Shown here piece by piece: positions 47,826 through 64,000 of a DNA stretch of 64,000 bases. A program made the translations under genes and the position numbers. The stretch is from an uncultured Aquimarina sp. Lineage in GTDB: Bacteria; Bacteroidota; Bacteroidia; Flavobacteriales; Flavobacteriaceae. The notes below the pieces were generated by a model. The model was given only the letters and a program-made list of their open reading frames with translations, did no database searches and had not been told where the DNA came from. Location of the stretch: NCBI RefSeq assembly GCF_947500065.1, contig NZ_CANMQT010000003.1, forward strand, positions 372,001-436,000, read 5' to 3'. Numbering within the stretch: position 1 is the stretch's first letter; every line of letters begins with the position of its first letter.

Positions 47826-48560
47826 TTGCAATTTTTATCAAAAAAAGAAATTCATCTTAGAGAAATCCTGCCAGAAGGCTATGTGGATATTCATTCTCAT
47901 TTATTACCTGCCATAGATGATGGAGTAAAAACGGTATATCAATCCGCTTACATTATTGAACAATTTGAAAAATTAGGGGTTAAAAAAATCATTACCACAC
48001 CGCATATAATGCAAGAAGTATGGCCAAATACATCGGAGACTATTCGAACTAAACATACGGAAATGCAAAAAGCATTATCCTCTCTTGATATAAACGTAAC
48101 ATTAGAGGCAAGTGCTGAATATATGCTGGATGATTTATTTTACAAAAGAATAAAAGAAAAAGATATTATCCCTTTACACCAAAGGTATCTCTTAGTAGAA
48201 ATGTCCACCTTTAATCCTCCTATTAATTTAAATGAAATTCTTTTCGAAATTAAATTAGCAGGGTTCACTCCTATTCTGGCTCATCCCGAACGGTATTCTT
48301 TTTATAAAGATGATATTAATAAATTTATACAATTAAAAGAATCTGGTTTTTTATTTCAACTTAATCTGCTTTCAATGTCCGGATATTATGGAGAAAAAGT
48401 AAAAAACATGGCTGCAAAGTTACTTACCGAAAAGCTTTTTGATTTTGCTGGTTCAGATGTACATAATTACCAACAGTTCGAAACATTAGAAAAAGGATTT
48501 ATACCAAAGTACGCAAAAGAAATTTCTAAATTAATGAGACAAAATTGTTCTTTTAGTTAA
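47826..48560 (+). CDS. CpsB/YwqE-type tyrosine-protein phosphatase (PHP domain)
   Basis: A 244-residue PHP-fold metal-dependent phosphatase: HxH motif YVDIHSHLLPAIDDG (near residue 20), KIITTPHIMQEVWPNT, LAHPERYSFYKD, and the C-terminal DxH AGSDVHNYQ. This family removes phosphate from the tyrosine cluster of Wzc-type kinases and so regulates capsule or exopolysaccharide production. The gene starts with TTG and is convergent with the Wzc-like kinase; their stop codons overlap by 3 bp within TTAA at 48557-48560. That fits a kinase/phosphatase pair, although the two genes face each other. Confidence 0.88.
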   Translation: MQFLSKKEIHLREILPEGYVDIHSHLLPAIDDGVKTVYQSAYIIEQFEKLGVKKIITTPHIMQEVWPNTSETIRTKHTEMQKALSSLDINVTLEASAEYMLDDLFYKRIKEKDIIPLHQRYLLVEMSTFNPPINLNEILFEIKLAGFTPILAHPERYSFYKDDINKFIQLKESGFLFQLNLLSMSGYYGEKVKNMAAKLLTEKLFDFAGSDVHNYQQFETLEKGFIPKYAKEISKLMRQNCSFS

Positions 48561-50908
48561 TCTTTTGCTCCATATCCATAACCGTATCCATAACCAACTT
48601 TATCACCAGCTGCATTAAGAAGTACTGCCATATTAGGTAAACGCTTTTCTCTATAGAAATTCTCAGGAACCTGCAGAATTCTTTTGTCAGAATAATTCTC
48701 TCTTACAATATAGATACTTAAATCTGCAAAATGTCCAATTAACAAAGTATCTGTAACAAGACTTACAGGAGCTGTATCGACTACTATATAGTCATAATTC
48801 TCTCCTAAATACTCAAACATCTCTTTTACCCTATCATTCATAAGAAGTTCAGCAGGGTTTGGTGGAATAACACCCGAAGGTACTACAAAAAGAGGATCAT
48901 TTTCACCTTGTTCATATATTACATCTTCAGGTTTAATATCCAAATTCATAATGAAATTAGTGAAACCTGGAGTATCTTTTCCTTTTGGAAGTTCAAAGAA
49001 ATTATGAAATTTAGGGTCACGAAAATCTGTTCCTAGGTATGCTATTTTCTTTCCAGAAATAGCTAATGTTTTTGCCAAGTTTGATGAAACTAACGTTTTA
49101 CCTTCTCCAGAAATCGTAGAGGTTACAAATATAACCTTACCTGTTTCTTTATTAGTTCCGGCCATTAAAAATCCTAAATTCGTTCTAAGAATTCTAAAAG
49201 CTTCTGCTACAGATGATCTACTATTTCTGGAAACAATAATTTTACTTTTCTTACTTTTAGTTCTAGGTATAGCACCTAGAATTGGCATAGAAAGTGCTCT
49301 TTCGAGATCTTCTCGAGAATTCACCTTAGTATTAAATAAATCCTTTAGATAAATAGTTAAAAACGGTAATGCTAGCCCGAAAAATATTGCACCAAAAAAG
49401 ATCATTTTCTTATTTGGAGAAACTGGATATGAACCTAATGTAGAGGCTCTATCAATTACACGCGCATTAGACAATGTTATATGACTTGTAATTTCTGCTT
49501 CTTCACGTTTTTGTAATAAATAAAGATATAATTGCTCTTTAATTCCTTGTTCACGACCTATTGCGGTTAATTCTTTCTGTCTTAGTGGAGCATTATATAA
49601 TTTCCCACTAAAGTATTTATCCTGAGTCCTTAAACTGTTTAAACTAATATTAATAGAGCTTTTTGCGCCGTTTAAACTTGCTATTAATCCTTGTCGTAAT
49701 GAACCAATTTGCTCATCTATATTTACAACTACAGGATTTTGTTCACTTGATGATTTTAATAATCTCTTTCGCTGTCTTATTAACCCATTATATCTTGCTA
49801 CAGTAGATGTTACAGAAGGATCATCAAATCCAAGTGTAGAAGGTAATATATCATATTTACCATCTTGACTAAGAACAAAACGTCTTGTAGATTCGATTTT
49901 TCTTACTTGTGTTTCTAGTCTATTAATTTCTTGAATATTTCTGGAATCTATATCAGCTACACGCTGAGTTTGTGCAGATACATCATTAGTTAATCCAAAT
50001 TTAGACTTATATCCTGCTGCTTCATCATCAACTTCGGATAAATCTCCTGAAATAAGTTCTAACCTTTCATTAATAAATCCAGCCGTTCTAGCAGAAGTTA
50101 GTTTCTTATTTTCAATAGTAGATTTATTATATTCTTCTACCAAATCATTAATAATATCCTTAGCTTTTTCTTTTACCGGATCATTTAGAGATAATTTAAC
50201 GATAGAAGATCCTTTACCAATAGTAATAACCGATAACTTGTTTCTATAACTTTGCGCGACTATGTTAACAGGAGTGATTTTAATATGAATAACCGTTCCT
50301 TTCTTAGATTCAATGCCTTCTACACTAGGAGTTATTACAATATCTCCCACACTTGTATTTATTGTTTTACCGAAGGAATGATCACTTAATTTTGTTCCTT
50401 CTTTATCAACAAAAGAAAAAGAAGTTTCTGAATTGATAAGTACTCTAAAGCTCTTTGATTTAGTATGTACAACGGAATCCGCTGACAAAAAATTAATTTC
50501 TATCAAAGATTTTGGATAATTCTCAGCCTCAAGAACTCTCCCTTTTGTAAAATACTGAACATTAAGCTTTAAGTTATTAACAACATTGGTAAGTAATGTT
50601 CTTGATTTTATAATCTGAATCTCGTTTTCGATTTTATTTTGGCTATCATCCAATAACCCTAAATCTTTAAAAGCCGATAATTCTGATTCACTAACACTTT
50701 CTTCCTGAGAAATCAGTATGGTTCCTGATACATTATATTGTGGAATTGTATATCGTATATGCAGATATGCCAATGTACCAAAAACTACAACACTCAGCAC
50801 AAACCAATACCAATTTTTTACATATTTTAGAATTTCATCTCTAAAATTGAAGCTTGATTTTGGAGGACTTACAAAAATGCTATTATCAGAATTATTATCA
50901 GAAATCAT
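48557..50908 (-). CDS. wzc: Wzc-type polysaccharide co-polymerase / tyrosine autokinase
   Basis: A 783-residue inner-membrane protein: a Wzz domain between two membrane helices (about 29-49 and about 500-520) with a long periplasmic coiled-coil section, then a cytoplasmic BY-kinase domain. That domain has Walker A SGEGKTLVSSNLAKTL, Walker A' GTDFRDPK and Walker B DYIVVDTAPVS. A C-terminal cluster GYGYGYGYGAKD supplies four closely placed tyrosines for autophosphorylation. It controls polymer length and export with the Wza protein, whose gene precedes it by 7 bp. The opposing CpsB phosphatase is its likely regulator. Confidence 0.92.
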   Translation of the reverse strand: MISDNNSDNSIFVSPPKSSFNFRDEILKYVKNWYWFVLSVVVFGTLAYLHIRYTIPQYNVSGTILISQEESVSESELSAFKDLGLLDDSQNKIENEIQIIKSRTLLTNVVNNLKLNVQYFTKGRVLEAENYPKSLIEINFLSADSVVHTKSKSFRVLINSETSFSFVDKEGTKLSDHSFGKTINTSVGDIVITPSVEGIESKKGTVIHIKITPVNIVAQSYRNKLSVITIGKGSSIVKLSLNDPVKEKAKDIINDLVEEYNKSTIENKKLTSARTAGFINERLELISGDLSEVDDEAAGYKSKFGLTNDVSAQTQRVADIDSRNIQEINRLETQVRKIESTRRFVLSQDGKYDILPSTLGFDDPSVTSTVARYNGLIRQRKRLLKSSSEQNPVVVNIDEQIGSLRQGLIASLNGAKSSINISLNSLRTQDKYFSGKLYNAPLRQKELTAIGREQGIKEQLYLYLLQKREEAEITSHITLSNARVIDRASTLGSYPVSPNKKMIFFGAIFFGLALPFLTIYLKDLFNTKVNSREDLERALSMPILGAIPRTKSKKSKIIVSRNSRSSVAEAFRILRTNLGFLMAGTNKETGKVIFVTSTISGEGKTLVSSNLAKTLAISGKKIAYLGTDFRDPKFHNFFELPKGKDTPGFTNFIMNLDIKPEDVIYEQGENDPLFVVPSGVIPPNPAELLMNDRVKEMFEYLGENYDYIVVDTAPVSLVTDTLLIGHFADLSIYIVRENYSDKRILQVPENFYREKRLPNMAVLLNAAGDKVGYGYGYGYGAKD

Positions 50909-50915
50909 AAATTTT

Positions 50916-51707
50916 CTATCTTAAAATAAGTGCCAATGCAGCTAAACCTACACTTACTACACTCAAAACAATTCCAATCGTATTATCTCTTCCTTTAGAA
51001 ACCTTTATTCTAGCATCATTAGGCTCTACATACAATACATCATTCTGAGCCAAATAATAAACTGGCGAATCAAAAATAGATTTAGAAGTAAGATCTACCT
51101 TATGATAGGTATTAACCCCATCATTTTCACGAATCACCATTACATTACCTCTTTTCCCCATAATAGTTAGGTCTCCTGCTAAACCGATAGCTTCAATAAT
51201 CGTTACCCTTTCATTAGGAATTGTAAAAGAACCTGGTTGGCTTACTTCACCAATAACTGTAATTTTAAAATTCTTAAGTCTAACATTAACAATAGGATCT
51301 TTGATGTATATTTTTAGCTTTTCCTTCAGCATATCTTTGATCTGCACCCTAGTCAAACCAGATATCTTTAATTTTCCTAATACCGGAAAATCGATATTTC
51401 CTTCTTCATCAATAAGATAGGTTGGCTCTACTCCTCCATTTCCACCAGAACTGGCACCAATATCTCCAGTAGGAGATGGTAAACTAGCTCCTTGCATTAG
51501 ATTAAAAGGTCTTGCGGCATCCATATCAGTAGCTGAGACCAAAATACTTACAACATCATCCACTTTAAAAACTGGAGTAAATGAATTTGTAGAGTTAATT
51601 TTTTCTAAGTTCTGAGAATCCTGAAAATACACAACATCTGTAGGTGTTTTACAAGAAAAAATAATTGTTGATAGTACCAACAATAGTAAAAATTTGTATG
51701 AATGCAT
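50916..51707 (-). CDS. wza: Wza-type polysaccharide export lipoprotein
   Basis: A 263-residue lipoprotein (lipobox TIIFSCKTPT, Cys19) with a Poly_export domain (VFKVDDVVSILVSATDMDAARPFNL, then YLIDEEGNIDFPVLGKLKISGLTRVQIKDMLKEKL) and a SLBB domain (FKITVIGEVSQPGSFTIPNERVTIIEAIGLAGDLTIMGKRGNVMVI). A hydrophobic C-terminal helix (GIVLSVVSVGLAALALIL) may cross the outer membrane. It forms the outer-membrane pore for the polymer handled by Wzc, 7 bp downstream. A TACTTTTG -7-like element is found 34 bp upstream (51742-51749, minus strand). Confidence 0.92.
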   Translation of the reverse strand: MHSYKFLLLLVLSTIIFSCKTPTDVVYFQDSQNLEKINSTNSFTPVFKVDDVVSILVSATDMDAARPFNLMQGASLPSPTGDIGASSGGNGGVEPTYLIDEEGNIDFPVLGKLKISGLTRVQIKDMLKEKLKIYIKDPIVNVRLKNFKITVIGEVSQPGSFTIPNERVTIIEAIGLAGDLTIMGKRGNVMVIRENDGVNTYHKVDLTSKSIFDSPVYYLAQNDVLYVEPNDARIKVSKGRDNTIGIVLSVVSVGLAALALILR

Positions 51708-51790: not shown

Positions 51791-53719
51791 CTAAACTAGT
51801 ACTTTCTGTTCCTTATTATTGGTTTCATTGTTCTTGATATCGATACTTTCGAAGGCAGAGTTCTTAGATATAAATTCTGGTACGATTTCCTTAAGTTTTC
51901 CAACAATTTTATGATCTTGATTGAACAAATTCATAATACATAGATCATCGATCTTATCCATAACTAATGGACAATCAGCGTCATCAAATTTGCTGATCAT
52001 GATTTTCTTATGGTATGTTGGTAAGGTATTCTCTGTATCAGCTAAAAGTTCTTCGTATAGTTTTTCACCAGGTCTTAATCCTGTTATTTCTATATCAATA
52101 TCATTAGGATAATTAAGTCCAGATAATCTAATCATTTTTTGAGCTAAATCAAATATTTTTACTGACTCACCCATATCAAAAATAAAAATCTCTCCTCCAT
52201 TACCCATTGTTCCAGCTTCAATAACTAATTGAGAAGCTTCAGGTATTGTCATAAAGAAACGAGTAACATCTTTATGAGTAACTGTAAGTGGTCCTCCTTT
52301 GTCAATCTGTTTTTTGAACAAAGGAATTACAGAACCATTTGATCCTAAAACATTTCCAAACCTTGTTGTAATAAATTTAGTCTTACTTGTTCTATGTAGA
52401 CATTTTATATACATCTCAGCAACTCTCTTAGTAGCACCCATTACATTTGTAGGGTTTACTGCTTTATCCGTTGATACAAAAACGAATTTATCTACACCAT
52501 ACTCCGATGATAAATCTGCTAATTTCCTTGTACCCAGAACGTTTATCTTAATAGCTTCACAAGGATTATTTTCCATTAATGGTACGTGCTTATACGCAGC
52601 TGCATGAAATACCATATTAGGTGTAAAACGTTCAAAAATAGTTTCAATACGTTGATGATCTCTAATATCAGCAACAATTGGCGTAAAATTACTAACTCCT
52701 TTACTCAAGAGTTCTTGTTGAAGATCATATAAAGGTGATTCTGCCTGATCCACTAACACCAAATGCTTATAATCATAAAAAGAAGCTTGTCTAACTATTT
52801 CACTTCCTATTGATCCTGCAGCACCAGTAATTAATATCACTTTATCCTGAAGTTCTTTTTTGATATTTTGATTTTCTAAAGCAATAGGAGCTCTATCTAA
52901 TAAATCTTCAATCTGAATTGGCTTAATCTGAGAAACATTTAATTTACCATCAATCCAATCATTTATAGCTGGTATAATCTTCACCTTCACTGATAGCTTA
53001 AGTAAATTATCAGAAATTTCAGATAAACGCTGTTTTTCTATATGAGGAATTGACACAATGATCTCAGTGACATTATGTTTTGTAATATAATTCTGTGTAA
53101 TGATTTTAGATTTAAATACTGTAATACCATTGATTGTTTTTCCAACTTTCTGTGGATTATCATCTATGAAACCAACTACGGTTACAGATTTATGAGAATC
53201 ATTAGTGATTGCAGCTAATGTAATCAAACCAGAGTCTCCTGCTCCATAAATCATAACTCTAGAAGAATCTCCTAGTTTTGATTTAATATAATGATAGCAA
53301 TATTTAAATACTAAACGACTAGTGGTAAGCGTAATAATATTTAGTAGATAATGAACACATATAATAGATACAGGAATATTAAGAAGCTCAGGTATTAACG
53401 ATAACCTACTAGAAACCATCAATGCCCCGCTTAATGATATCAAAACAGTTACAGCCAAAAAGAGATTATAAGCATCTCTCATACCCGTATGTCTTACAAC
53501 TCCTTTATAAGAACCTATCATTAAAAAACTAATCCCTGCTAAAATTGTCATTACTGGAATTTGGTATACCAAATTAGTAACCTCAAAATCCAGTGTAATA
53601 CCAAATCTAACTACATATGCCAAAAAGAAGTTTAAAATAGTAATTGCAATATCGATAGATAATACAAGCCATTTAGATGCATGCTTATGCGAGTTATTAA
53701 TTATATAATCCTTTATCAT
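51791..53719 (-). CDS. pglF: Nucleotide-sugar 4,6-dehydratase, PglF/CapD/FlaA1 membrane type
   Basis: A 642-residue protein: four N-terminal membrane helices (about 20-125), a first Rossmann-like domain (VMIYGAGDSGLITLAAI) and a C-terminal extended SDR domain with ITGAAGSIGSEIVRQA, DIRDHQRIETIF, HAAAYKHVPLMENNP and STDKAVNPTNVMGATKR. PglF-type enzymes convert UDP-GlcNAc to the 4-keto-6-deoxy sugar, the first step to bacillosamine; other members give UDP-FucNAc/QuiNAc precursors, so the exact product is inference. The start overlaps the stop of the aminotransferase by 4 bp. Confidence 0.9.
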   Translation of the reverse strand: MIKDYIINNSHKHASKWLVLSIDIAITILNFFLAYVVRFGITLDFEVTNLVYQIPVMTILAGISFLMIGSYKGVVRHTGMRDAYNLFLAVTVLISLSGALMVSSRLSLIPELLNIPVSIICVHYLLNIITLTTSRLVFKYCYHYIKSKLGDSSRVMIYGAGDSGLITLAAITNDSHKSVTVVGFIDDNPQKVGKTINGITVFKSKIITQNYITKHNVTEIIVSIPHIEKQRLSEISDNLLKLSVKVKIIPAINDWIDGKLNVSQIKPIQIEDLLDRAPIALENQNIKKELQDKVILITGAAGSIGSEIVRQASFYDYKHLVLVDQAESPLYDLQQELLSKGVSNFTPIVADIRDHQRIETIFERFTPNMVFHAAAYKHVPLMENNPCEAIKINVLGTRKLADLSSEYGVDKFVFVSTDKAVNPTNVMGATKRVAEMYIKCLHRTSKTKFITTRFGNVLGSNGSVIPLFKKQIDKGGPLTVTHKDVTRFFMTIPEASQLVIEAGTMGNGGEIFIFDMGESVKIFDLAQKMIRLSGLNYPNDIDIEITGLRPGEKLYEELLADTENTLPTYHKKIMISKFDDADCPLVMDKIDDLCIMNLFNQDHKIVGKLKEIVPEFISKNSAFESIDIKNNETNNKEQKVLV

Positions 53720-54849
53720 CTCAATATATTTTTAATTACCGATACAATTCTAAATAAATCTTCTTCTTCAAGGTTAGACCCGCTGGGTAAGCAAAGTCCT
53801 CGATCAAATAGGTCATCAGAAATTCCATTGAGGTAAGCATCACAATCCGCAAAAACAGGTTGGAGATGCATGGGTTTCCATAGTGGTCGGGATTCTATGT
53901 TTTCTTCGGCTAATGCTAACCTTAACCCTTCTCTTAATTCATAAGAAGTAGTTTCTATACAGGTTAACCATCTGTTAGAATGAAAACCGGTAGGCTCTAC
54001 CAAAAATTTAATTTCAGTAGAGTCTCCCAAATTATTTTTATAAAAATTAAAATTATTCCGTCTATTGTTTACGTGTTTTTCTAATACTTCCATTTGACCT
54101 CTACCAATTCCAGCAATAATATTGCTCATTCTATAGTTATGCCCTATTTCAGTATGTTCATAATGTGGTGCATTATCTCTTGCTTGTGTTGCAAGGAAAA
54201 TAGCTTTTTCTTTATGTTCTAGTTTTTTCGCTACTAATGCTCCTCCTCCTGAAGTAGTAATAATTTTATTACCATTAAAAGAAAGTATCGCGATATCTCC
54301 AAAAGTTCCACAGTTAACACCGTGATAGGAACTTCCTAATGATTCTGCACTATCTTCTAAAACAGGAATTTTGTATTCTGATGCTATTTTGTGAATCGCA
54401 TCTACATTATATGGCATACCATATAAGTGCACAGCAATAATAGCTTTTGGTTTTTTTCCTTTAGCGATTCTATCTTTTATAGCCAATTCTAATTGTTCAG
54501 GACAGATATTCCATGTCTGTGCTTCACTATCAATAAAGACTGGCTTTGCTCCCAGATACACAATAGGATTTGCAGAAGCTGCGAAGGTCATAGTTTGACA
54601 CAACACTTCATCCCCTCGTGTTACACCTAAAAGTTTAAGACCTAAATGTAAAGATGCGGTACCAGAACTTAGTGCCGCTGCATGACAATTACTCCCTAGA
54701 TAATTCTCAATATCTTTTTCAAAACCATCCACATTTGGCCCTAATGGTGCAACCCAATTAGTCTCAAAAGCTTCCTTAATATAACTTTGCTCCGTTCCCC
54801 CCATATGTGGTGAAGAAAGCCATATTTTCTTGGATTTTACTGTATTCAT
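53716..54849 (-). CDS. pglE: DegT/DnrJ/EryC1 aminotransferase, PglE-like
   Basis: A 377-residue PLP enzyme: KKIWLSSPHMGGTEQSYIKEAFETNWVAPLGPNVDGFEKD, typical of PglE-like enzymes; EDSAESLGSSYHG holds the PLP aspartate, and Lys in FNGNKIITTSGGGALV (about residue 194) forms the internal aldimine. It adds the 4-amino group to the PglF product. The gene precedes pglF (4-bp overlap), so the two are transcribed together from the 54850-55523 region. It has two overlapping hairpins and a GGGG-type purine stretch directly upstream of the start. Confidence 0.92.
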   Translation of the reverse strand: MNTVKSKKIWLSSPHMGGTEQSYIKEAFETNWVAPLGPNVDGFEKDIENYLGSNCHAAALSSGTASLHLGLKLLGVTRGDEVLCQTMTFAASANPIVYLGAKPVFIDSEAQTWNICPEQLELAIKDRIAKGKKPKAIIAVHLYGMPYNVDAIHKIASEYKIPVLEDSAESLGSSYHGVNCGTFGDIAILSFNGNKIITTSGGGALVAKKLEHKEKAIFLATQARDNAPHYEHTEIGHNYRMSNIIAGIGRGQMEVLEKHVNNRRNNFNFYKNNLGDSTEIKFLVEPTGFHSNRWLTCIETTSYELREGLRLALAEENIESRPLWKPMHLQPVFADCDAYLNGISDDLFDRGLCLPSGSNLEEEDLFRIVSVIKNILR

Positions 54850-54863
54850 AATTTTCCCCTGTT

Positions 54864-54915
54864 AATTATTGAACAATACTTTATCCTCAATAATTGTAAC
54901 AAAATTGTTACAATT
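54864..54915 (-). promoter_or_regulatory. Two overlapping, mutually exclusive hairpins just upstream of pglE
   Basis: In the minus-strand leader, hairpin A has arms AATTGTAAC and GTTACAATT (9 bp, 6-nt spacer, 54892-54915). Hairpin B has arms AATTATTGA and TCAATAATT (9 bp, 14-nt spacer, 54864-54895). They share four bases (54892-54895), so both cannot fully form at once. Hairpin B ends 14 nt before the ATG, next to AGGGGA. Hairpin A could instead be a DNA operator. The remaining 54916-55523 is A/T-rich and shows no gene. Confidence 0.6.
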
Positions 54916-55523
54916 GCTGACATTCTTTTTCATGACAATCTAATAAAATGTTAGGAAGAAGGGGGTAGCACTTCCAAAAATTGTATTTTACTCTTACTTG
55001 CTTTAACCGATGCTAAAATAGTTCAGTTACATTTAATATCATCGGAAAAACTATTTTTTTAGATAGAATACTTAAAAAAGGCGTTTAACAGCATAACTAC
55101 TTCCTAATAAACCCTTAAACAAGGGGTTTACCGTAAGAAAAGTACTATATATCTCAACTATAAATACAAGTAAAAACCTACAAAAGGATTCATTTTGTTT
55201 AACTAATCTTGTATAAACTACACTTTTTAACATTTTTTAACTAACATTTAACAATAATTTAGCCGTAATTTCCTACTTCAATCAACAAGTAAAATAACAC
55301 TACAATGATACTTAGTAAAATTTAATAAATCAGCAGGAAATCACCTGTTTATAAATAGGGTTTTTGCCCCTTACAAATTTGCTCTTATAATACCTTGAAA
55401 GGCTTGTAAAAAAGGAATTTTAGAAAAAAATAAAATAATTCTTGATTTATTAAATTAAATAAACAAAATTTACGGGCTTCAAAAAAATAAACGAATCCCC
55501 TAATATTATATTAATGGTGATGC

Positions 55524-56975
55524 ATGTTATTTAATTCTTTAGATTTTTTCATCTTTTTACCGGTAGTTTTTATTATTTACTGGTTCTTTTTTAGCAAACA
55601 CTTAAAACTCCAGAATATTTTTATTCTAGTAGCGAGTTATTTGTTTTATGGAATGTGGGATTGGCGTTTCTTGTTTCTTATTCTTGCCAGCACTACTATT
55701 GATTATATGGTAGGTCAATACATCTACAATAGTGACTCTACTTCGCAAAGAAAAAGATGGCTATGGGTGAGCGTAATTTTTAATATTGGGCTTTTGGGGT
55801 TCTTTAAATACTACAACTTCTTTGTTGATTCTTGGGTTGACTTTATTAGCATTTTCGGCTATGAACTAAAGAGTTCATGGACTTTGCAAATTATACTTCC
55901 TGTTGGTATATCTTTTTATACGTTCCAGACGATGTCTTATTCTTTAGACATTTACTACAAAAGACTTACCCCTACTAAAGATTTTATTTCTTTTGCAACG
56001 TTTGTAAGTTTTTTTCCACAATTAGTGGCTGGTCCAATTGAGAGAGCCTCTAATTTACTCTCACAAATTACAACAAAAAGAACCTTTAAGTATTCTCAAT
56101 GTACTGAGGGCTTAAAACTAATAATCTGGGGACTTTTTAAGAAAGTAGTAATTGCTGATTCTATAGCCCCCATAGTAGATGATATTTTTGCTAATTATGG
56201 TAGCTATCCTGCCTCTACTCTCATACTTGGTGTTACATTATTTAGTTTCCAGGTATATGGAGATTTTAGCGGATACTCTGATATTGCTATTGGTACTGCT
56301 AAATTATTTGGGATAGAATTAATGTCTAATTTCAAGTTTCCAAGTTTTTCAAGAAATGTAGCAGAATACTGGCAACGATGGCATGTATCATTATCCACTT
56401 GGTTTAGACATTACGTTTACATTCCGCTTGGAGGTAGTAGAGTAAGTAAACTAAAATCTGTAAGAAATATTTGTATTATCTTCTTGGTAAGTGGTTTTTG
56501 GCATGGAGCTAATTGGACTTTTATTGCTTGGGGAGCAATTCATGCACTTCTATATATTCCGGTTTTCTTAATGGGACGTAATCGGATTTACATGAATAAT
56601 GTTGTAGCAGAAAATAGCTGGTTTCCTTCTTTTAGGGAAATATTACAGATACTACTCACCTTCTCTCTGGTAACATTTTCCCGAGTGTTTTTCAGATCAG
56701 AATCAATAACAGATGCTTTTGGTTTTTTAAAACAGATATATACCAATTTTAGTTTTGAAATATACGAACATCCTTTAGGATACCGTATGATAGACTATTT
56801 TATATTACTAGGGATATTTGTTTTGTATGAATTTAGAATCAGAAGAGATGAGCGATCCCCTTTTAAATTTAAATCAAAACTAGTACGATTTGTCGCCTAT
56901 ACTTTAGTAATTTTAGGGATGCTTCTTTTCTTTGATGATAATATCGACAGATCTTTTATTTATTTTCAATTTTAA
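55524..56975 (+). CDS. MBOAT acyltransferase (AlgI/DltB-like)
   Basis: A 483-residue membrane protein of 10 or more helices with MBOAT features: LASYLFYGMWDWRFLFLILASTTIDYMVG, LPVGISFYTFQTMSYSLDIYYKRL, FVSFFPQLVAGPIERA, and the catalytic-region His residues in VSGFWHGANWTFIAWGAIHALLY. Such enzymes pass acyl groups across the inner membrane to a periplasmic polysaccharide; AlgI acetylates alginate and DltB transfers D-alanine from a carrier protein. The next gene is an SGNH-type protein (35-bp gap), the partner normally found with MBOATs. It is divergent from the pglE operon. Confidence 0.93.
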   Translation: MLFNSLDFFIFLPVVFIIYWFFFSKHLKLQNIFILVASYLFYGMWDWRFLFLILASTTIDYMVGQYIYNSDSTSQRKRWLWVSVIFNIGLLGFFKYYNFFVDSWVDFISIFGYELKSSWTLQIILPVGISFYTFQTMSYSLDIYYKRLTPTKDFISFATFVSFFPQLVAGPIERASNLLSQITTKRTFKYSQCTEGLKLIIWGLFKKVVIADSIAPIVDDIFANYGSYPASTLILGVTLFSFQVYGDFSGYSDIAIGTAKLFGIELMSNFKFPSFSRNVAEYWQRWHVSLSTWFRHYVYIPLGGSRVSKLKSVRNICIIFLVSGFWHGANWTFIAWGAIHALLYIPVFLMGRNRIYMNNVVAENSWFPSFREILQILLTFSLVTFSRVFFRSESITDAFGFLKQIYTNFSFEIYEHPLGYRMIDYFILLGIFVLYEFRIRRDERSPFKFKSKLVRFVAYTLVILGMLLFFDDNIDRSFIYFQF

Positions 56976-57010
56976 AACTTTAAAAGTATACAAAATAGAA
57001 CTGAAACAAA

Positions 57011-57979
57011 ATGAAAAAACTTATTCTAAAAAGCGGCTTATATGTTTTTCTGGTTCTTATTTCATTAGAATTATTAGTACGTGTTTTTCATTTAGGAAAA
57101 GACACTCCTACCAGGATTCTAGATGAACATAAAGTAGAGAAATGGATGCCTAATCAGAATGGTTTTTCTGTTACAGGAAACAGAAGACAAAATTTCTCTG
57201 AATACCATATAAACAACTCAGGATATAACTCTTATAGAGAATTTAACCCTACTAAAAACAAAATTGAAGTTGCTCTTGTTGGAGATTCATTTATAGAAGG
57301 ATTTCATCAAAACTACTATAACTCTATCGGTAAAAAAATAGAGAAATCTATACCAGAAATCGAAGTGTATGAATATGGATATGCGGGATATGATTTTGCA
57401 GATCAGTTGCATCTAGTAAACGCCTACAAAGAACAATTTGATGCAATTGATCATATAATTCTTGGAATAAAATTCTCTAATGATCTTACAAGAGGAGAAT
57501 ATGAAGTAATAATGGGACGATTGGCACTAGAATCGCCTATGAATAGGCTTCTTAAAAAAAGTAAACTACTTGTCTATTGTAAAAGCATTGGCATTTTAGA
57601 CCCACCTCAAAGACTCATGTATAAGCTAATCAACATCTTAAAACCTGCAATTAAAAAACAAGATGTAAACAAAGAAGAAGTTTTACGGATTAAGAATAAG
57701 AAAGAAAAAAAATACTTAGCGAATTTTAATAGTTTAATTGAAAAATATGGCTTTGATAAAAATCGTTTTACATTACTACTAGATTCACGAATTACTAGTA
57801 ACCTCTTCTTATCCTATCTAGACAATAACGACTTTAACTATATTGACTTTTCAAAACACTTTGAAGAAAGTGATCAAGCTACAACTTTGATCTATGATAG
57901 ACATTGGAACAATAACGGAAGAGCTTTAATTGCAAAAGCGATCAGTGAATATCTTAAAGAATTAGAAATTAAAAAGTAG
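57011..57979 (+). CDS. SGNH/GDSL-like periplasmic protein, MBOAT partner (AlgJ/DltD-like role)
   Basis: A 322-residue protein with one N-terminal membrane helix (about 4-22: LILKSGLYVFLVLISLELLV). The SGNH fold follows, with the nucleophile Ser93 in VALVGDSFIEGF and an Asp296/His298 pair in YDRHWNNNGR. In acyl-transfer systems this type of protein moves the acyl group from the MBOAT product to the glycan, or acts as its acceptor. Linkage to the MBOAT gene (35 bp) supports that role; its acyl group is unknown. The gene is convergent with the GNAT gene ending at 57983 (3-bp gap). Confidence 0.88.
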   Translation: MKKLILKSGLYVFLVLISLELLVRVFHLGKDTPTRILDEHKVEKWMPNQNGFSVTGNRRQNFSEYHINNSGYNSYREFNPTKNKIEVALVGDSFIEGFHQNYYNSIGKKIEKSIPEIEVYEYGYAGYDFADQLHLVNAYKEQFDAIDHIILGIKFSNDLTRGEYEVIMGRLALESPMNRLLKKSKLLVYCKSIGILDPPQRLMYKLINILKPAIKKQDVNKEEVLRIKNKKEKKYLANFNSLIEKYGFDKNRFTLLLDSRITSNLFLSYLDNNDFNYIDFSKHFEESDQATTLIYDRHWNNNGRALIAKAISEYLKELEIKK

Positions 57980-57982
57980 TAA

Positions 57983-59140
57983 CTAACTATTAAACACTAC
58001 TTTTTGCATTTTAGCACTTCCAACAATTAAATAGGATTTTTCTTTTTCAGAAACTTCTAACACTCTAACATTATTAACGTTATCAATACTTGTGTATAAG
58101 AAATCAAATACAATTCTTCTTAACGGACTGTATTCTTTAGTATTATAATCCACTATTTTAAGATCTTTGTCATATAGCGCCTCCTCTATAGCAGAAACCT
58201 GATATTCATCAGTAGGAATAACTGGGTTTTCCTTTCGTTTTGCTTTATACTTTTTATAACGAACATAGGCAACCTTAAATACAAACTCCTTAAGTTTTAC
58301 TTTCAGACATTCTATATTTCCTTTAACGAATCCTACAACAGATTTTTTTGGGTAGATAATTTGATGTTCAAAATTATATATATGATTACACCACTCTCTT
58401 TTATAACTTAGATCCCCCATCCCCATTTCATAGGATTTGTGATTATTTTCAATCAACCAATCTAACTTTTTATAAATCTCTACACTACCTAAACTAAATT
58501 TAGAATAATCAATATCATAAGAAGATATTGCACTAAATAATCTGTTCTGAAAATGATGATTTAAGGAAACTATAATAGGTTGATCACCCTCAAAAGCAAC
58601 AAACATCGATGCCTTTTTTTCATTGATTAAAGAAAAGTACATCTTTTTATAATGATCCCACCTTAAAAGACTTTGACTTACATCGTTACGCTGCTCAAAC
58701 CTTCTAATTAACATTTTTTCTAAAGAATCCATGAAGAAAGCATATTCATCTTCTTCTATCGATCCATAATAGGTTTTATAAGAAATCTGAAAGCATGACT
58801 CTAATCGTTTCACTCTTCTCCTTATTGCTTTAGCATTGCTTCTAAAACGATGTTTTATATATGCATCAGCATTTGCAAACCCCTCAAGAAAAATAGCATA
58901 CCCTTTAAAAAACTGATCCACCTTTTTTATAACAAACCTATCATTTTTAAGACTTGGTTTTAAATAGTCTGGTATAAAAAAAACGGAATATATCGTATCT
59001 GGATTATGCACCAGGTTATCATCATAATCAGGATTGATTAATGGTTTTTCATTTTCTGAAGGACGAACCTCTGAGAATAGTTTCGGGATTGAACATTTTT
59101 CAAAAAGTTCGAAAAAGTAATCTATATGCTCTTTTCTCAT
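57983..59140 (-). CDS. GNAT-fold (CelD/FemAB-like) acyltransferase
   Basis: A 385-residue cytoplasmic protein with an Acetyltransf_6 domain (about 90-290): IKHRFRSNAKAIRRRVKRLESCFQISYKTYYG, SMFVAFEGDQPIIVSLNHHFQNRLFSAISSYDIDYSKFSLGSVEIYKKLDWLIENNHKSYEMGMGDLSYKREWCN. These families include CelD (cellulose synthesis) and FemAB-type aminoacyl transferases. Basic and Tyr/Lys-rich tails follow. It overlaps the next upstream gene by 4 bp (59137-59140) and closes the minus-strand operon. The acyl donor (CoA, tRNA or carrier) cannot be told from sequence. Confidence 0.75.
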   Translation of the reverse strand: MRKEHIDYFFELFEKCSIPKLFSEVRPSENEKPLINPDYDDNLVHNPDTIYSVFFIPDYLKPSLKNDRFVIKKVDQFFKGYAIFLEGFANADAYIKHRFRSNAKAIRRRVKRLESCFQISYKTYYGSIEEDEYAFFMDSLEKMLIRRFEQRNDVSQSLLRWDHYKKMYFSLINEKKASMFVAFEGDQPIIVSLNHHFQNRLFSAISSYDIDYSKFSLGSVEIYKKLDWLIENNHKSYEMGMGDLSYKREWCNHIYNFEHQIIYPKKSVVGFVKGNIECLKVKLKEFVFKVAYVRYKKYKAKRKENPVIPTDEYQVSAIEEALYDKDLKIVDYNTKEYSPLRRIVFDFLYTSIDNVNNVRVLEVSEKEKSYLIVGSAKMQKVVFNS

Positions 59141-60228
59141 CTATTACTTAATCTATAATAAGGAAAGAAATAATTTTTTAGATCTTCTTTCTTAATATTT
59201 GTATATTCTTTGTCGGAAGACAAGCACAGTTCATCATACAACTGCTCATTTACTATTTTTCTTCCTGTACAAAATATCACATCTTCATCTTTAGGGAAAA
59301 GTGATTTCTTATTCTTGTATAATCCATCTCCATCTTTCATTCCACCTCCAAGGACATAATGTTTCTTACCATTTTCCACAGCCCACTCTATTACCTTTAC
59401 TCTTAAAAAGTCATTAGGTCTATAGCTAAAATACTCCGCATTTGTACCGCCTAGAAATGCAAAAATTACATCCTTATAATTTATAATAAGTTCGACAGAA
59501 ATAGGTATACCTTCATAATAAACAACAACGATAGAAAAATTATCCAAATTGGATAAAATCAAGTCTTCAAAATATGCACTAGAGAAAAAGTAAATACTAT
59601 CCGCGTTATTTCTGGTCATAGTAGCTACATAAATATCATTAAATATTTTTATAACTTCCTTAGTTATTTGATCTTTATGAAAAACTTTAAAATCTAAATC
59701 ATAATTTATTGCTTTTCTATAGTTGTTCCTTACTTTAGGTAAAAATGCATTCCATTGATCTTCAAAATTATCTAATAAACGACCTTTTACATTAGACAGT
59801 GTTTTTATTAAAGAACCCGAATAATTCTCATGATTTTCATTGAGGCTAAAACGCACAAATTCTGTTATAACATTATTCTCGTTGTACCAAATATCTACAT
59901 GTTTCCAAAATTCTGCAAGATCGTTTGAGGTTACATTTTCATTAAATAAAGGGCCACTATATCCATAAGGACTAATAACATCATAATAAGGATAGTCCTT
60001 TTCATTTATTTTTATCTTCCTTAATACAAAGGGCATCAGAATGATAGGAGCACCATCCTTTTCAAACAAAAAGCATCTCAATTCGTCAGAATCTTTTTCA
60101 GAATGACGAAGGTGTTCTATAGAATAATAAACGTTATTATTCCACTCTTTTTTTAGAAGTGACTTATATTTCACAACTTCAGAACTATCATCAAGATTTT
60201 TTATTAATATTCTGTAATTTTCCTCCAA
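59137..60228 (-). CDS. FemAB/GNAT-like acyltransferase
   Basis: A 363-residue protein with a FemAB-like twin-GNAT layout (Acetyltransf_6): DVISPYGYSGPLFNENVTSNDLAEFWKHVD (FemAB-type N-terminal lobe), then NYRKAINYDLDFKVFHKDQI, FSIVVVYYEGIPISVELIINYKDVIFAFLGGTNAEYFSYRPNDFLRVKVIEWAVENGKKHYVLGGGMKDGDGLYKNKKSLFP. The 'GGG...G..YKNK.LFP' end is typical of the polysaccharide/PEP-CTERM-linked FemAB-like group. It may attach an amino acid or acyl group to a sugar. It overlaps the downstream GNAT gene by 4 bp. Confidence 0.78.
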   Translation of the reverse strand: MEENYRILIKNLDDSSEVVKYKSLLKKEWNNNVYYSIEHLRHSEKDSDELRCFLFEKDGAPIILMPFVLRKIKINEKDYPYYDVISPYGYSGPLFNENVTSNDLAEFWKHVDIWYNENNVITEFVRFSLNENHENYSGSLIKTLSNVKGRLLDNFEDQWNAFLPKVRNNYRKAINYDLDFKVFHKDQITKEVIKIFNDIYVATMTRNNADSIYFFSSAYFEDLILSNLDNFSIVVVYYEGIPISVELIINYKDVIFAFLGGTNAEYFSYRPNDFLRVKVIEWAVENGKKHYVLGGGMKDGDGLYKNKKSLFPKDEDVIFCTGRKIVNEQLYDELCLSSDKEYTNIKKEDLKNYFFPYYRLSNR

Positions 60229-60277
60229 TGTAAAAGTTTTAATATGATTGATTTTATTTAATGATTGATTTTATTTG

Positions 60278-61858
60278 CTAGTTTTTTACTACATATTCAT
60301 CAAAATAGTTATAGATTTTCTCAGCTAAAACTTGTGATAACCATATAATTCTGCCACAATGCTCCACATGCCACACTGCTTTTCCTTCAAAAATATTACC
60401 CGCTAATAAAGGTCCCACAATATGCAAATTGCTTGATGCTTCTAAAGACTCATTTACATCAAAACCAATTTTAGACTCATTAGGGACACACAATTTTTTA
60501 TTTACAATTTTGCTCAATAATGGTGGAATATCTGTAGCATCTAAATTTGTACTTCCAATACAGTTAAAAACAATGTTTATCGAATCTTCACTAGTTACAT
60601 TAATTCCGGATTTTGTATCTAAATATTCTAATGAATATTTATTATCAGAGTCCTTTTTAATATCCACAAATCTTCCTGCAATATGATCAAAGCGGTTTTC
60701 TTCTTTTAGCCTATCGATTGTCTTGGAATAATGATACCCTGCACATCGTTGTCTTCTTCCTATATCATTTCCGTATCGGCAAGCAAATTTTCTCAATTCT
60801 TCTTGATCTAACTTTGTCAAAAGAGAACCAAAAGCTTTGGATATAATATCAACTGTAGAAGCTGCTCCTAAGTTAATTTCGTCAGCTAAGTCTAAATCTC
60901 TGTAAGTAGCTTCTGCTATTTGTTTCGCGGTTAAATTTTCACACTCGACTAGAGAAAGTAAATTTTTCGGAGCATATTTCTTTTTTCTTTCCTCATCAAC
61001 TATAGAATCTGGAGATAATCCTTGAGTAGAAAGCAACGTAAACTTATTAATTTTAGATTTTATACTTTCCAAATCATTTAATTTGTAAAGCATTTCTAAT
61101 CCACTAGCATTTGCTCCTACGATCAATGCGTTACATTTTTTTTCTGATGTACTCTCCAAGAACACTTCTACTTTCTTTAGTATTTCTTTTAGGTTGGGTT
61201 TGTATGGATTATTAATAAAGATTAAATTATCTTCTATAATTAAATCCTCTTTTTTCCATAATTGAACAGTTGGTAGTGAACCAACAGAAAGAATCACTTT
61301 TTCAGATATGATTTTTTGACCATCATCAAGAGACATCACATATCCATCATTCTTTTTATCTAAATCAATTACTTCTGTATTGATGAAGTTTATGGATATA
61401 CTATCATTTTTTTGAGCTGCCTCAATATTGTTTTTGACTTTCTGATCAATATAGCAACCAAAAAAACGACGAGGAATAAAAAGATCCTCCCATTCATTAT
61501 TCTTGAGTTTTTCTTTGTGCGTAGAAAGCCATTCCGAAGATAATTCACCACCTTCAGATCTAAACTCTTCTAATAGCCATTCTTTATTTTCGTTAAGCCA
61601 TTTAATAAATTTGCTTAATTCTGGCTCTGGTAAAAAGTTCTTTAAAGAGGTAATTAATAAAACTGAAAAACCAGATCTTATACCATAAGGTATTCCTGTA
61701 TAAAATTCCGGATATTTTTCAATAATAGTTATTGATATTTTCTTATTAATCGAATTGGTTTTTAATTGATCAAGAAAATGTAAAATAGTAAATGACGATG
61801 AGATACCAGAACCAATAAAGGCGATATCTGTGTGGTTAGTTTTAATTTCAAAATCCAT
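60278..61858 (-). CDS. FAD/NAD(P)-binding protein (NAD_binding_9 type)
   Basis: A 526-residue protein opening with a dinucleotide-binding loop (IAFIGSGISSSFTILHFLDQL, GxGxxS), then VILSVGSLPT, a second nucleotide loop ALIVGANASGLEMLYKLN, and the FAD-domain end IVFNCIGSTN ... LHIVGPLLAGN. The overall layout matches the FAD-NAD(P)-binding (PF13454-like) group found in some natural-product and polysaccharide loci. The reaction is unknown: it could oxidise an acyl or amino-acyl group on the carrier protein or a sugar. It lies 49 bp downstream (on the minus strand) of pglD and before the FemAB-like gene. Confidence 0.75.
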   Translation of the reverse strand: MDFEIKTNHTDIAFIGSGISSSFTILHFLDQLKTNSINKKISITIIEKYPEFYTGIPYGIRSGFSVLLITSLKNFLPEPELSKFIKWLNENKEWLLEEFRSEGGELSSEWLSTHKEKLKNNEWEDLFIPRRFFGCYIDQKVKNNIEAAQKNDSISINFINTEVIDLDKKNDGYVMSLDDGQKIISEKVILSVGSLPTVQLWKKEDLIIEDNLIFINNPYKPNLKEILKKVEVFLESTSEKKCNALIVGANASGLEMLYKLNDLESIKSKINKFTLLSTQGLSPDSIVDEERKKKYAPKNLLSLVECENLTAKQIAEATYRDLDLADEINLGAASTVDIISKAFGSLLTKLDQEELRKFACRYGNDIGRRQRCAGYHYSKTIDRLKEENRFDHIAGRFVDIKKDSDNKYSLEYLDTKSGINVTSEDSINIVFNCIGSTNLDATDIPPLLSKIVNKKLCVPNESKIGFDVNESLEASSNLHIVGPLLAGNIFEGKAVWHVEHCGRIIWLSQVLAEKIYNYFDEYVVKN

Positions 61859-61861
61859 AAA

Positions 61862-62506
61862 CTATGGTTGTTTTGTTTTTATTACGCGTGCTGGATTACC
61901 AACTACCGTAGTGTATTCTGGAACATCTTTTATAATTACTGTTCCTGCCCCTATTAAGGTTTCTTTACCTATTTCTTTAACACCTGTCATAGCAGTAACT
62001 CCCATACCAACATAAGCATTTTTTCTAACATTAATTAAAGCGCCTATGTTAACACCAGAAGACATAAAAACTCCATCTTCTAAGGTTACGTGATGTGCTA
62101 TGGTACTATCCATGTTAATCATAATATAATTACCAATAGTTGTATGTGGCATCACGATATTACCTGCTAACATATATACAGCTTCACCAATTGTTACATC
62201 TGGTGCAATAGACACCGTATGATGTAAAAAACCAGGAATACCGTATCCTTCTTTTTTTAAAGTGGATAAATACTCCACTCTTACTGCATTCACTCCTATA
62301 GGACAATAGACATCTTGAATTTTATTTTTAAATTCATCCAAAAACAAATCCTTATACTTACCGATAACGGGTATATTAATCACTTCTTTACCTACCAACT
62401 CCGGATTATCATCGATAAAACCAATGATATTTACACCTGCCTCTTTAAGATAGGAAGCATACACCTGTCCTTGGGTTCCTGCACCAATTATTACAGCATT
62501 TTTCAC
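61862..62506 (-). CDS. pglD: Sugar O/N-acetyltransferase, PglD/NeuD-like
   Basis: A 214-residue protein. An N-terminal nucleotide-sugar-binding region (AVIIGAGTQGQVYASYLKEAGVNIIGFIDDNPELVGKEVINIPVIGKYKDL) is followed by a left-handed beta-helix of hexapeptide repeats (VSIAPDVTIGEAVYMLAGNIVMPHTTIGNYIMINMDSTIAHHVTLEDGVFMSSGVNIGALINVRKNAYVGMGVTA) with the catalytic His in IAHH. The PglD family N-acetylates UDP-4-amino-sugars in bacillosamine synthesis; NeuD members O-acetylate sialic acids. With PglF- and PglE-like genes in the same locus the first role is favoured (inference). Confidence 0.85.
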   Translation of the reverse strand: MKNAVIIGAGTQGQVYASYLKEAGVNIIGFIDDNPELVGKEVINIPVIGKYKDLFLDEFKNKIQDVYCPIGVNAVRVEYLSTLKKEGYGIPGFLHHTVSIAPDVTIGEAVYMLAGNIVMPHTTIGNYIMINMDSTIAHHVTLEDGVFMSSGVNIGALINVRKNAYVGMGVTAMTGVKEIGKETLIGAGTVIIKDVPEYTTVVGNPARVIKTKQP

Positions 62507-62548
62507 TTTAATATAATATAGTTTTTAGTGGTTTCTTATTCTATTTGG

Positions 62549-63154
62549 TTAATTATTACCTGTAAAAGTAGGCATATTTACATTTTCACCGCTATTAATA
62601 TCTTCTTTAAACAAAACTTTCTTAGCCGTCATAAGAATAATTTTAAAGTCAAGTTTGAAACTCCTGTTTTCTGTATACCAAACGTCTAATTTAAATTTAT
62701 CATCCCAAGAAATAGTATTTCGTCCATTTACTTGGGCCCAACCTGTAATTCCAGGTCTTACATTATGTCGCTTTTTTTGAAAATCATTATACAATGGTAG
62801 ATATTTCACCAAAAGTGGTCTTGGACCTATGAGACTCATATCTCCTTTTATAACATTAAACAGTTGCGGGATTTCATCCAATGAATACTTTCTTATAAAC
62901 TTTCCTGTTTTTGTAATTCTCTTTTCAAAAGGCAACAACTCTCCTTTTTCATCTTTTTTGTCGTTCATACTTTTAAACTTGATAATCTTAAAAACTTTTT
63001 CATTTTTACCAGGTCGTGATTGAAAAAAGAACGGTTTACCATTATTGGCAATAGCCAACAACACTATAAGCACCAATATAACTGGTGATAACAAAAGAAC
63101 ACCTATAAAACAAAGTGTAAAATCTATCAAACGTTTTATAAATGAATTGTACAT
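62549..63154 (-). CDS. pglC: Initiating phosphoglycosyl transferase, PglC/WcaJ-like
   Basis: A 201-residue monotopic membrane enzyme: one re-entrant/anchor helix (MYNSFIKRLIDFTLCFIGVLLLSPVILVLIVLLAIA, with K/R and P around it), then PFFFQSRPGKNEKVFKIIKFKSM, KRITKTGKFIRKYSLDEIPQLFNVIKGDMSLIGPRPLL and ITGWAQVNGRNTISWDDKFKLDVWYTENRS. It transfers the first sugar-phosphate to undecaprenyl phosphate to start the glycan. The short length (no extra N-terminal helices) is the PglC type rather than WbaP. It lies 43 bp downstream of... and on the same strand as the ACP gene. Confidence 0.92.
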   Translation of the reverse strand: MYNSFIKRLIDFTLCFIGVLLLSPVILVLIVLLAIANNGKPFFFQSRPGKNEKVFKIIKFKSMNDKKDEKGELLPFEKRITKTGKFIRKYSLDEIPQLFNVIKGDMSLIGPRPLLVKYLPLYNDFQKKRHNVRPGITGWAQVNGRNTISWDDKFKLDVWYTENRSFKLDFKIILMTAKKVLFKEDINSGENVNMPTFTGNN

Positions 63155-63159
63155 AAAAT

Positions 63160-63405
63160 CTACGCTTGTAATTCTGATTCTATACTATTAATTAAATCCC
63201 CGACATTATTCATATTCATAAGATCCATTAATTTAAACTTAATACTAAAAGCTTTTTCTACTTCTGTAATAATCATCATATGTGTAATAGATTCCCATCC
63301 ATCTACATCATTTGCTGTAGTCTCATTGGAAAGTTGGAAATTTTCATGTTCTAATACTGAAATGAATGCTGTTCTCACTTTAGATAAAATCTCTTCTCTA
63401 TTCAT
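63160..63405 (-). CDS. Acyl/peptidyl carrier protein
   Basis: An 81-residue carrier protein with the phosphopantetheine site Ser39 in DGWESITHMMIITEVEKAFSIKF (the usual DSL becomes ESI). Acidic helices and helical ends (IINSIESEL type) fit the family. It lies 21 bp after the adenylation enzyme and 6 bp before the sugar transferase gene on the minus strand. With an NRPS-type adenylation partner it would carry an amino acid or other acid as a thioester, as DltC does for D-alanine (inference for this locus). Confidence 0.9.
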   Translation of the reverse strand: MNREEILSKVRTAFISVLEHENFQLSNETTANDVDGWESITHMMIITEVEKAFSIKFKLMDLMNMNNVGDLINSIESELQA

Positions 63406-63425
63406 TAATTGGTTATTTTAGTTGT

Positions 63426-64000
63426 TTAGCTTATATTAAAATGTTTTTTTAACTCTTTCCTATCAATTTTCCCATTAATACTGTGCGGAAATTCTTTTAT
63501 GAATCTCACATGCATCGGAATCATATAACTAGGCATCATCTTTTTCATATGGTCAAATATATATTCAGTATCAAATTCTTCGGATTCAATTGCCAAACCA
63601 AGCTCTGCATTGCCAAGAGAATTTGTAATATCCAGTGCTACCATATTCACCTTTTTATCAGATCTAGATTTTGCGTGAAATTCTATTTCTGCAAGTTCTA
63701 CTCTATATCCTCTAATTTTTACCTGAAAATCTGCTCTCCCTACATATAAGAAGTCTCCTTCTTCGTCTTTTAAGCAAAGATCTCCCGTCTTATAATATCT
63801 TATATTTTTATCATTTTCTTTTCTTGTGAAAAAACTTTGAGCATTTCGTTCTTCATTTTTCCAATATCCTGGTGTTATTTGCGGTCCACCTAAGCATAAT
63901 TCACCAGTTTCACCAATAGCAACTTCTTCATTGTTTTCATTTACCACAAGATACAATGTATCTTTTTGAGGAGTACCAATAGCTATAATGCCATTATGTG
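63426..64000 (-). CDS. AMP-binding adenylation enzyme, C-terminal part (cut by window edge)
   Basis: The frame is open from base 64000 down to the stop at 63426, about 191 residues of an ANL-superfamily enzyme that continues outside the window. Visible core motifs: GETGELCLGGPQITPGYWKNEERN (A5/A6), YKTGDLCLKDEEGDFLYVGRADFQVKIRGYRVELAEIE (A7/A8 hinge of NRPS-type adenylation domains), and NGKIDRKELKK (A10, with the catalytic Lys). An in-frame TTG at 63956 is not the start, because the domain continues upstream. It should activate an amino or fatty acid with ATP and load it on the carrier protein 20 bp downstream. The specificity pocket is outside the window. Confidence 0.92.
   Translation of the reverse strand, partial: HNGIIAIGTPQKDTLYLVVNENNEEVAIGETGELCLGGPQITPGYWKNEERNAQSFFTRKENDKNIRYYKTGDLCLKDEEGDFLYVGRADFQVKIRGYRVELAEIEFHAKSRSDKKVNMVALDITNSLGNAELGLAIESEEFDTEYIFDHMKKMMPSYMIPMHVRFIKEFPHSINGKIDRKELKKHFNIS

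Follow-up and report, generated by a model that had tools for sequence, protein, structure and literature searches.

Several described systems resemble parts of a gene set at the end of a 64,000-nucleotide stretch of DNA from an uncultured Aquimarina sp. (hereafter the window; positions 372001-436000 of a contig, C3 in coordinates, of a 6.57 Mb genome). In the Dlt system (DltA, DltC, DltB, DltD and DltX) the acyl shuttle motif FxYxxF is found on the separate DltX, whereas the MBOATs of other systems carry it as part of their own C-terminus; as portrayed in the relevant passages of a 2025 paper, the motif-fused systems lack a carrier protein and evidently use acyl-CoA (PMC12148441). The SbzB/SbzL, SbzG/SbzK and SbzC/SbzI proteins of altemicidin/SB-203208 biosynthesis in Streptomyces combine an adenylation enzyme, a stand-alone carrier and a GNAT transferase, for which the pertinent section of the source demonstrates transfer from the carrier in vitro, so that such a combination is capable of this chemistry (PMC6331615). 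In Flavobacterium psychrophilum, of the same bacterial family, the N-acyl system of the O-polysaccharide comprises PglF/PglE, the carrier WfpD and the PglD homologue WfpG, and part of the published account proposes that a carrier-bound acyl group moves to a UDP-4-amino sugar (PMC6519341). AlmE, AlmF and AlmG, which serve the glycine modification of lipid A in Vibrio cholerae, likewise pair an adenylation enzyme with a carrier for a modification of the Gram-negative surface (PMC12930378), AlmG being of the LPLAT kind (PMC3783018).

An earlier note on this DNA had proposed that an adenylation enzyme, a carrier protein, an MBOAT acyltransferase and an SGNH protein, the same four gene types as in the Dlt system for D-alanine in Gram-positive bacteria, act as one module of a polysaccharide locus. 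From comparison with related genomes we consider it rather probable that there are two neighbouring units: gnatX, the adenylation gene and the carrier gene, forming a cytoplasmic aminoacyl-transfer module, and the MBOAT-SGNH pair, a separate system for O-acylation. The protein families, key residues and fixed linkage of the first unit are observed; its predicted activity and substrate, perhaps glycine, are read from them.

The adenylation, carrier and gnatX genes

The adenylation gene is truncated by the edge of the window, which holds its 3' part (63426..64000, - strand). The 5' part that the earlier note lacked has been recovered, and the full gene, which would extend to window position 64922, encodes 498 aa (locus L005:426-1922; C3:435426-436922). 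Its product matches the AMP-binding family PF00501 with 193.9 bits against a cut-off of 29.9, and the highest of its 96 matching NCBIfam models (E <= 0.001) is the amino-acid adenylation domain TIGR01733, at 291.1 bits; DltA models are among the best of the others, and none of the 25 models listed out of the 96 reaches its cut-off. At positions taken, by the usual numbering, to be those of the specificity letters, the enzyme reads DFVTCFYVYK, as do 23 of 26 genes of its own lineage, and the Asp and Lys expected for an alpha-amino acid are retained. Among solved matches, its pocket region is closest to a fuscachelin synthetase domain (50.9 bits), with entry 4oxi, presumably AlmE, 0.1 bit behind (50.8 bits) and DltA lower (36.7 bits); our guess at the substrate is a small amino acid such as glycine. 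When aligned, the pocket letters of AlmE (D L H L S F L I A) coincide with those of the window (DFVTCFYVY) at two of nine positions and with those of a sister lineage described below (DLxLSFVIx) at six. The window's genome has no other adenylation gene like it, the next best match being 27% identical.

That this enzyme is an acyl-CoA ligase or nonribosomal peptide synthetase (NRPS) of lipid or secondary metabolism, located here by chance, appears very improbable. The breadth of its NCBIfam matches, with none of the 25 listed above cut-off, and the large NRPS genes in relatives of the genus would suit such a role, but its best models are those for amino-acid adenylation and DltA-type enzymes, a carrier gene is adjacent, and across the genus its lineage accompanies phosphoglycosyl transferases, together in many loci with PglE, PglF and Wza. 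The earlier note had allowed that the enzyme might prove to be a fatty-acid CoA ligase, to which a best match of amino-acid type, even below cut-off, lends no support.

The carrier gene (63160..63405, - strand; 81 aa) is 20 bases from the adenylation gene. Its product matches PF00550 (24.2 bits, cut-off 20.8) and retains the phosphopantetheine serine within a WES motif (codon 63289-63291), and the phosphopantetheinyl transferase family has two matches in the genome, so that the cell is probably able to prime the carrier. By family and adjacency these two genes are an amino-acid adenylation enzyme and a stand-alone carrier of the Sbz kind. Because the best match is of amino-acid type and the carrier lies so close by within a polysaccharide locus, the proposal of the earlier note that the locus activates an amino acid, loads it onto the carrier and modifies a glycan remains the best reading. 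The step that it assigned to the MBOAT and SGNH proteins is unsupported, given their strand and their separate occurrence; that the glycan is aminoacylated is probably correct, with another enzyme making the transfer.

The candidate for that enzyme is gnatX, a gene of 365 aa located 24 bases upstream of the adenylation gene, outside the window (L005:1947-3044). By structure modelling and comparison, its product is predicted to be a tandem GNAT shaped like N-myristoyltransferase, whose C-terminus coincides with the end of the fold. Six of 40 gnatX members match the N-terminal model of the Pfam NMT family weakly (best E 0.011), and the window genome's own gnatX has no match to that family at E <= 1.

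To survey the linkage of these genes, loci were taken around full-length adenylation matches (>350 bits) from 56 relatives and from 397 genomes of the family (L041-L074 and L103-L130). To these were added 14 of 79 named loci (L138-L151); the counts leave aside the remaining 65, which were for the most part distant and NRPS-like. After removal of three repeats there were 74 loci with 78 adenylation genes. In a tree of the 78 made by a quick method, the 50 genes of the window's lineage form one clade (SH-aLRT 100). All 50 have gnatX immediately upstream and 49 have a carrier gene downstream, the exception being the leading gene of a tandem pair. In no case is there a same-strand MBOAT gene within 2.5 kb downstream. 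The gnatX label changes twice on the tree, versus 22.7 times in shuffles. Among the 397 family genomes, 22 possess gnatX, 21 of them together with an adenylation gene (E <= 1e-75), and the four of 25 adenylation-gene genomes that lack gnatX (G279, G386, G390 and G410) all have genes of the sister lineage.

In the proposed mechanism, the adenylation enzyme would use ATP to load a small amino acid onto the carrier, and gnatX would transfer the aminoacyl group from the carrier thioester, by analogy with Sbz, to form an amide on an amino group, most likely that of a 4-amino sugar of the PglF/PglE type. The NeuD-like, FAD-binding and FemAB-like proteins encoded nearby may tailor this sugar residue, and a phosphoglycosyl transferase would begin the repeat unit by placing the modified sugar on a lipid carrier prior to export. 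The Sbz genes belong to an antibiotic cluster, whereas here the setting is a polysaccharide locus, and the GNAT is N-myristoyltransferase-shaped and fixed beside the adenylation gene. In F. psychrophilum the acyl chain is proposed, in the part of the account cited above, to come from ketosynthase-type enzymes, whereas here an amino-acid adenylation enzyme adjoins the carrier. No LPLAT-type glycyl transferase comparable to AlmG was found among the 16 locus genes scanned with Pfam, the rest of the genome not having been searched.

In one locus an FkbH gene lies between gnatX and the carrier gene (L241:6002-9038; TIGR01686, 297.9 bits, cut-off 146.65), the gnatX there being 26% identical to the window type. 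FkbH loads a glyceryl group, which has no amine, and the retention of gnatX with the carrier despite such a product suggests that the carrier-bound group is the donor for gnatX. This bears on an unlikely reversal of roles, in which gnatX would N-acylate the amino acid while it is bound to the carrier, as N-myristoyltransferase does with an N-terminal glycine, and NeuD or FemAB would then move the N-acyl-aminoacyl group to the sugar. The N-myristoyltransferase-like fold of the gnatX model would fit a reversal, as would the N-acetylglycyl and N-acetylalanyl groups on amino sugars of polysaccharides that are listed in the relevant section of a review (PMC3210612). A GNAT-like gene also stands beside the carrier gene in some sister-lineage loci (by Pfam in L129 and L145 only, weakly in L145, and by eye in L146 and L148), as does a formyltransferase gene in L145. 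The pairing of gnatX with an amine-free FkbH product speaks against the reversal, from one locus with a divergent gnatX.

The MBOAT and SGNH genes

The genes named in the earlier note are all present as intact open reading frames at the positions it gave and belong to the expected families, the adenylation, carrier and MBOAT proteins by Pfam and the SGNH protein by its GDS and DxH blocks. Its placement of them in one operon does not hold. The MBOAT gene (55524..56975; PF03062, 102.1 bits, cut-off 27) and the SGNH gene (57011..57979) are on the + strand, spanning 55524-57979, whereas the adenylation, carrier, FAD and FemAB-like genes are on the - strand, where the order of transcription, from beyond position 64000, is adenylation, carrier, phosphoglycosyl transferase, NeuD/PglD-like, FAD enzyme and the two FemAB-like genes, the last of which reaches 57983. 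The SGNH gene and the last of these, fem1, are thus convergent, tail to tail at 57979/57983.

The window MBOAT ends in FIYFQF (codons 56955..56972), a form of the FxYxxF motif to which a shuttle function is assigned in the portion of the literature cited above (PMC12148441). Among the 88 MBOATs examined, the WHG of the conserved histidine is present in 86 and a terminal FxYxxF in 87, the single exception being cut by the end of its locus. In Dlt the motif resides on DltX, but here it is on the MBOATs themselves, as in PatA/PatB and AlgI-type pairs, in which an MBOAT of this kind has a separate SGNH partner; for the window pair, donor and polymer are not evident from sequence. From its fused motif and the classes of MBOAT defined in that study, the window MBOAT looks like one of the acyl-CoA class. 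Three Aquimarina loci (L223, L224 and L225; 15.9 kb read in each) have the layout wzc-wza-pglF-pglE-MBOAT-SGNH-fem-phosphoglycosyl-transferase with neither adenylation gene nor carrier gene. These carrier-free relatives and the described classes both point to an acyl-CoA donor, and we infer that the pair carries out O-acylation, probably with acetyl-CoA and its own C-terminal tyrosine as shuttle. The SGNH protein has no Pfam match (E <= 0.001), to DltD or any other family, and shares its GDS and DxH blocks with all 56 members examined of its family, itself among them; it is the partner of the MBOAT and probably not part of the carrier system.

In the joint, Dlt-like reading, the MBOAT receives the aminoacyl group from the adenylation enzyme and carrier, and the C-terminal tyrosine of the MBOAT passes it via the SGNH protein to a polymer. 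The genes do share a locus, L121-L123 have an MBOAT gene upstream on the same strand, and 22 of 28 sister-lineage adenylation genes belong to runs of the four types, in which all 18 listed MBOATs end in the shuttle motif. Applied to the window, this reading is probably wrong, and we give it little weight. Here the genes are not contiguous on one strand, as they are on opposite strands. All Dlt scores tested fall short of their cut-offs (adenylation enzyme, TIGR01734, 255.7 bits versus 559.85; MBOAT, TIGR04091, 144.1 versus 375), the carrier matches only three general acyl carrier protein models and none for DltC (E <= 0.001), and the fixed partner of the adenylation gene is gnatX, in all 50 cases. 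A window-type MBOAT (>=700 bits) is encoded in 59 of the 397 family genomes, 19 of them together with an adenylation gene, from whichever lineage; in the other 40 no adenylation gene was found (E 1e-75), the carrier not having been searched for there. Conversely, gnatX, adenylation and carrier genes occur without an MBOAT gene in L058-L061, and in genomes G015 and G022 without a window-type MBOAT (E 1e-80). The SGNH families differ as well, DxH being present in 56 of 56 proteins of the window family versus none of 16 in the sister cassettes.

Several observations weigh against the division into two units, or against the role given to gnatX. In L121-L123 (3/50 loci) the same-strand MBOAT gene immediately precedes gnatX, and L241 has a single-strand run from MBOAT and SGNH genes to gnatX-FkbH-carrier, so a link to the MBOAT pair is conceivable in some loci; 18 of 25 other Aquimarina loci have an opposite-strand MBOAT gene within 9 kb. 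The tie to sugar genes is not absolute, since the trio in L107 stands, in the stretch read, without phosphoglycosyl transferase, NeuD, FAD or FemAB genes. The TIGR01733 score of the adenylation enzyme stays below that model's cut-off of 317.4. The likeness of gnatX to N-myristoyltransferase is one of fold only, at about 10% identity, and a profile search with gnatX found no solved relative by sequence. Finally, the transfer could be the work of NeuD by itself, in line with the proposal for F. psychrophilum.

Cassettes of the sister lineage

The four-gene module of the earlier note, which had suggested looking for it in other Bacteroidota, exists in the sister lineage. Of 28 sister-lineage adenylation genes, 25 have a carrier gene, one has gnatX, and 22 (in 20 loci) are followed on the same strand by an MBOAT gene and usually then by an SGNH gene. 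The order adenylation-carrier-MBOAT-SGNH is contiguous amid polysaccharide genes in L063-L067, L069-L072, L114-L117, L120 and L126, and recurs in L127-L129, L145 and L146, where the proteins are more distant or a further gene is added. These proteins also remain below the Dlt cut-offs (DltA 286.6; DltB 173.4; DltC 17.6, cut-off 68), the SGNH protein of the distant cassette in L127 reaching 21.8 against 22.7 for DltD. In L066, the only member tested, the closest solved match to the pocket region is 4oxi (69.8 bits), with DltA at 54.1 bits. Judged by their sequences, the cassettes, with a fused-motif MBOAT behind an adenylation enzyme and a carrier, do not fit either class as delineated in the cited passages (PMC12148441).

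In nine Aquimarina genomes, a sister cassette lies 17-24 kb from a window-type trio. Several relatives have the cassette flanked by LbH and Wzy homologues, which in the window's genome are separated by 86 bases. Two tandem sister-lineage adenylation genes precede a single carrier gene in L065:7993-10976 and L066:8150-11133. A Ferruginibacter metagenome-assembled genome has a row of genes for an adenylation enzyme, a formyltransferase, a carrier, a GNAT-like protein, a second carrier, an MBOAT and a further protein (L145:9974-15988), which suggests an N-formylated or N-acetylated aminoacyl group.

Proposed amino sugar, putative tailoring genes and significance

The polysaccharide locus recognised by the earlier note is confirmed by families and extends to sugar biosynthesis. 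After a gap of 674 bases beyond the MBOAT-SGNH pair, the - strand encodes a DegT/PglE-like aminotransferase (53716..54849; PF01041, 308.6 bits; LegC-type TIGR04181, 376.7, below its cut-off of 420), a PglF/CapD-like 4,6-dehydratase (51791..53719; PF02719, 396.2 bits), a Wza-like export protein (50916..51707; PF02563) and a Wzc-like chain-length/tyrosine-kinase protein (48557..50908; PF02706, PF13807 and AAA_31). Next to the carrier gene, on the same strand, are genes for a short phosphoglycosyl transferase, which would transfer the first sugar onto a lipid carrier (62549..63154; PF02397, 210.6 bits), and a NeuD/PglD-like sugar N-acyltransferase (61862..62506; PglD_N; TIGR03570, 164.5 bits, cut-off 160.8). 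PglF, PglE and PglD relatives, as in the bacillosamine-type route, thus occur together above cut-off (PF02719, PF01041 and TIGR03570), and the first two would yield a 4-amino sugar. The same polysaccharide cluster includes a PaaK-like adenylate-forming gene (L005:7758-9161) with weak likeness to the flexirubin protein FlxY (77 bits, cut-off 520).

The - strand run continues with an FAD/NAD(P)-binding enzyme (60278..61858; PF13454) and the FemAB-like acyltransferases fem2 (59137..60228; PF13480, with weak FemAB/FemX matches) and fem1 (57983..59140; FemAB/GNAT-like; PF13480, 44.3 bits). In relatives NeuD is fused to FAD in 11 proteins and to FemAB in four, and FAD to FemAB in eight rows (L147 repeats L113), giving 22 distinct proteins, which suggests joint action of the three. 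The tailoring role that the earlier note gave to the FAD and FemAB-like proteins is reasonable on this evidence, although the FAD gene is absent beside the trio in several loci (e.g. L055, L059, L060, L062, L068, L073 and L074). The FAD enzyme model resembles N-hydroxylating monooxygenases, but with a second aligner other flavoproteins, among them thioredoxin reductases, come out at least as close. Runs of fem1-like genes were noticed near the trio or the MBOAT gene, six in L119, seven in L144, and others in loci such as L217 and L230.

An FkbH gene also precedes a second carrier-MBOAT-SGNH set in L116:13510-17843 (293.9 bits), so that all four combinations of a loader (adenylation or FkbH) with a transferase (gnatX or MBOAT-SGNH) are present among the loci read. 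Each FkbH combination occurs in one locus, and replacement by FkbH is therefore a lead. As a speculative extension, Bacteroidota polysaccharide loci might use an interchangeable kit around a small carrier, in which the loader is an amino-acid adenylation enzyme or FkbH and the transferase is gnatX for cytoplasmic amides or MBOAT/SGNH with a DltX-like motif for external esters; the window would then represent adenylation with gnatX, and the FAD enzyme may make it an N-hydroxylated (hydroxamate) aminoacyl sugar.

N-aminoacyl amino sugars are already known in bacterial polysaccharides, and gnatX, the adenylation gene and the carrier gene are a concrete three-gene candidate for making one. If the role proposed for gnatX is correct, a bacterial enzyme with the N-myristoyltransferase fold is tied to a carrier protein, which would be unexpected. 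The sister cassettes, if correctly read, join two MBOAT classes that are separate in the cited part of the 2025 paper, the carrier-fed DltB with DltX and the acyl-CoA-fed enzymes with a fused motif (PMC12148441), and offer a test of how an MBOAT donor is chosen.

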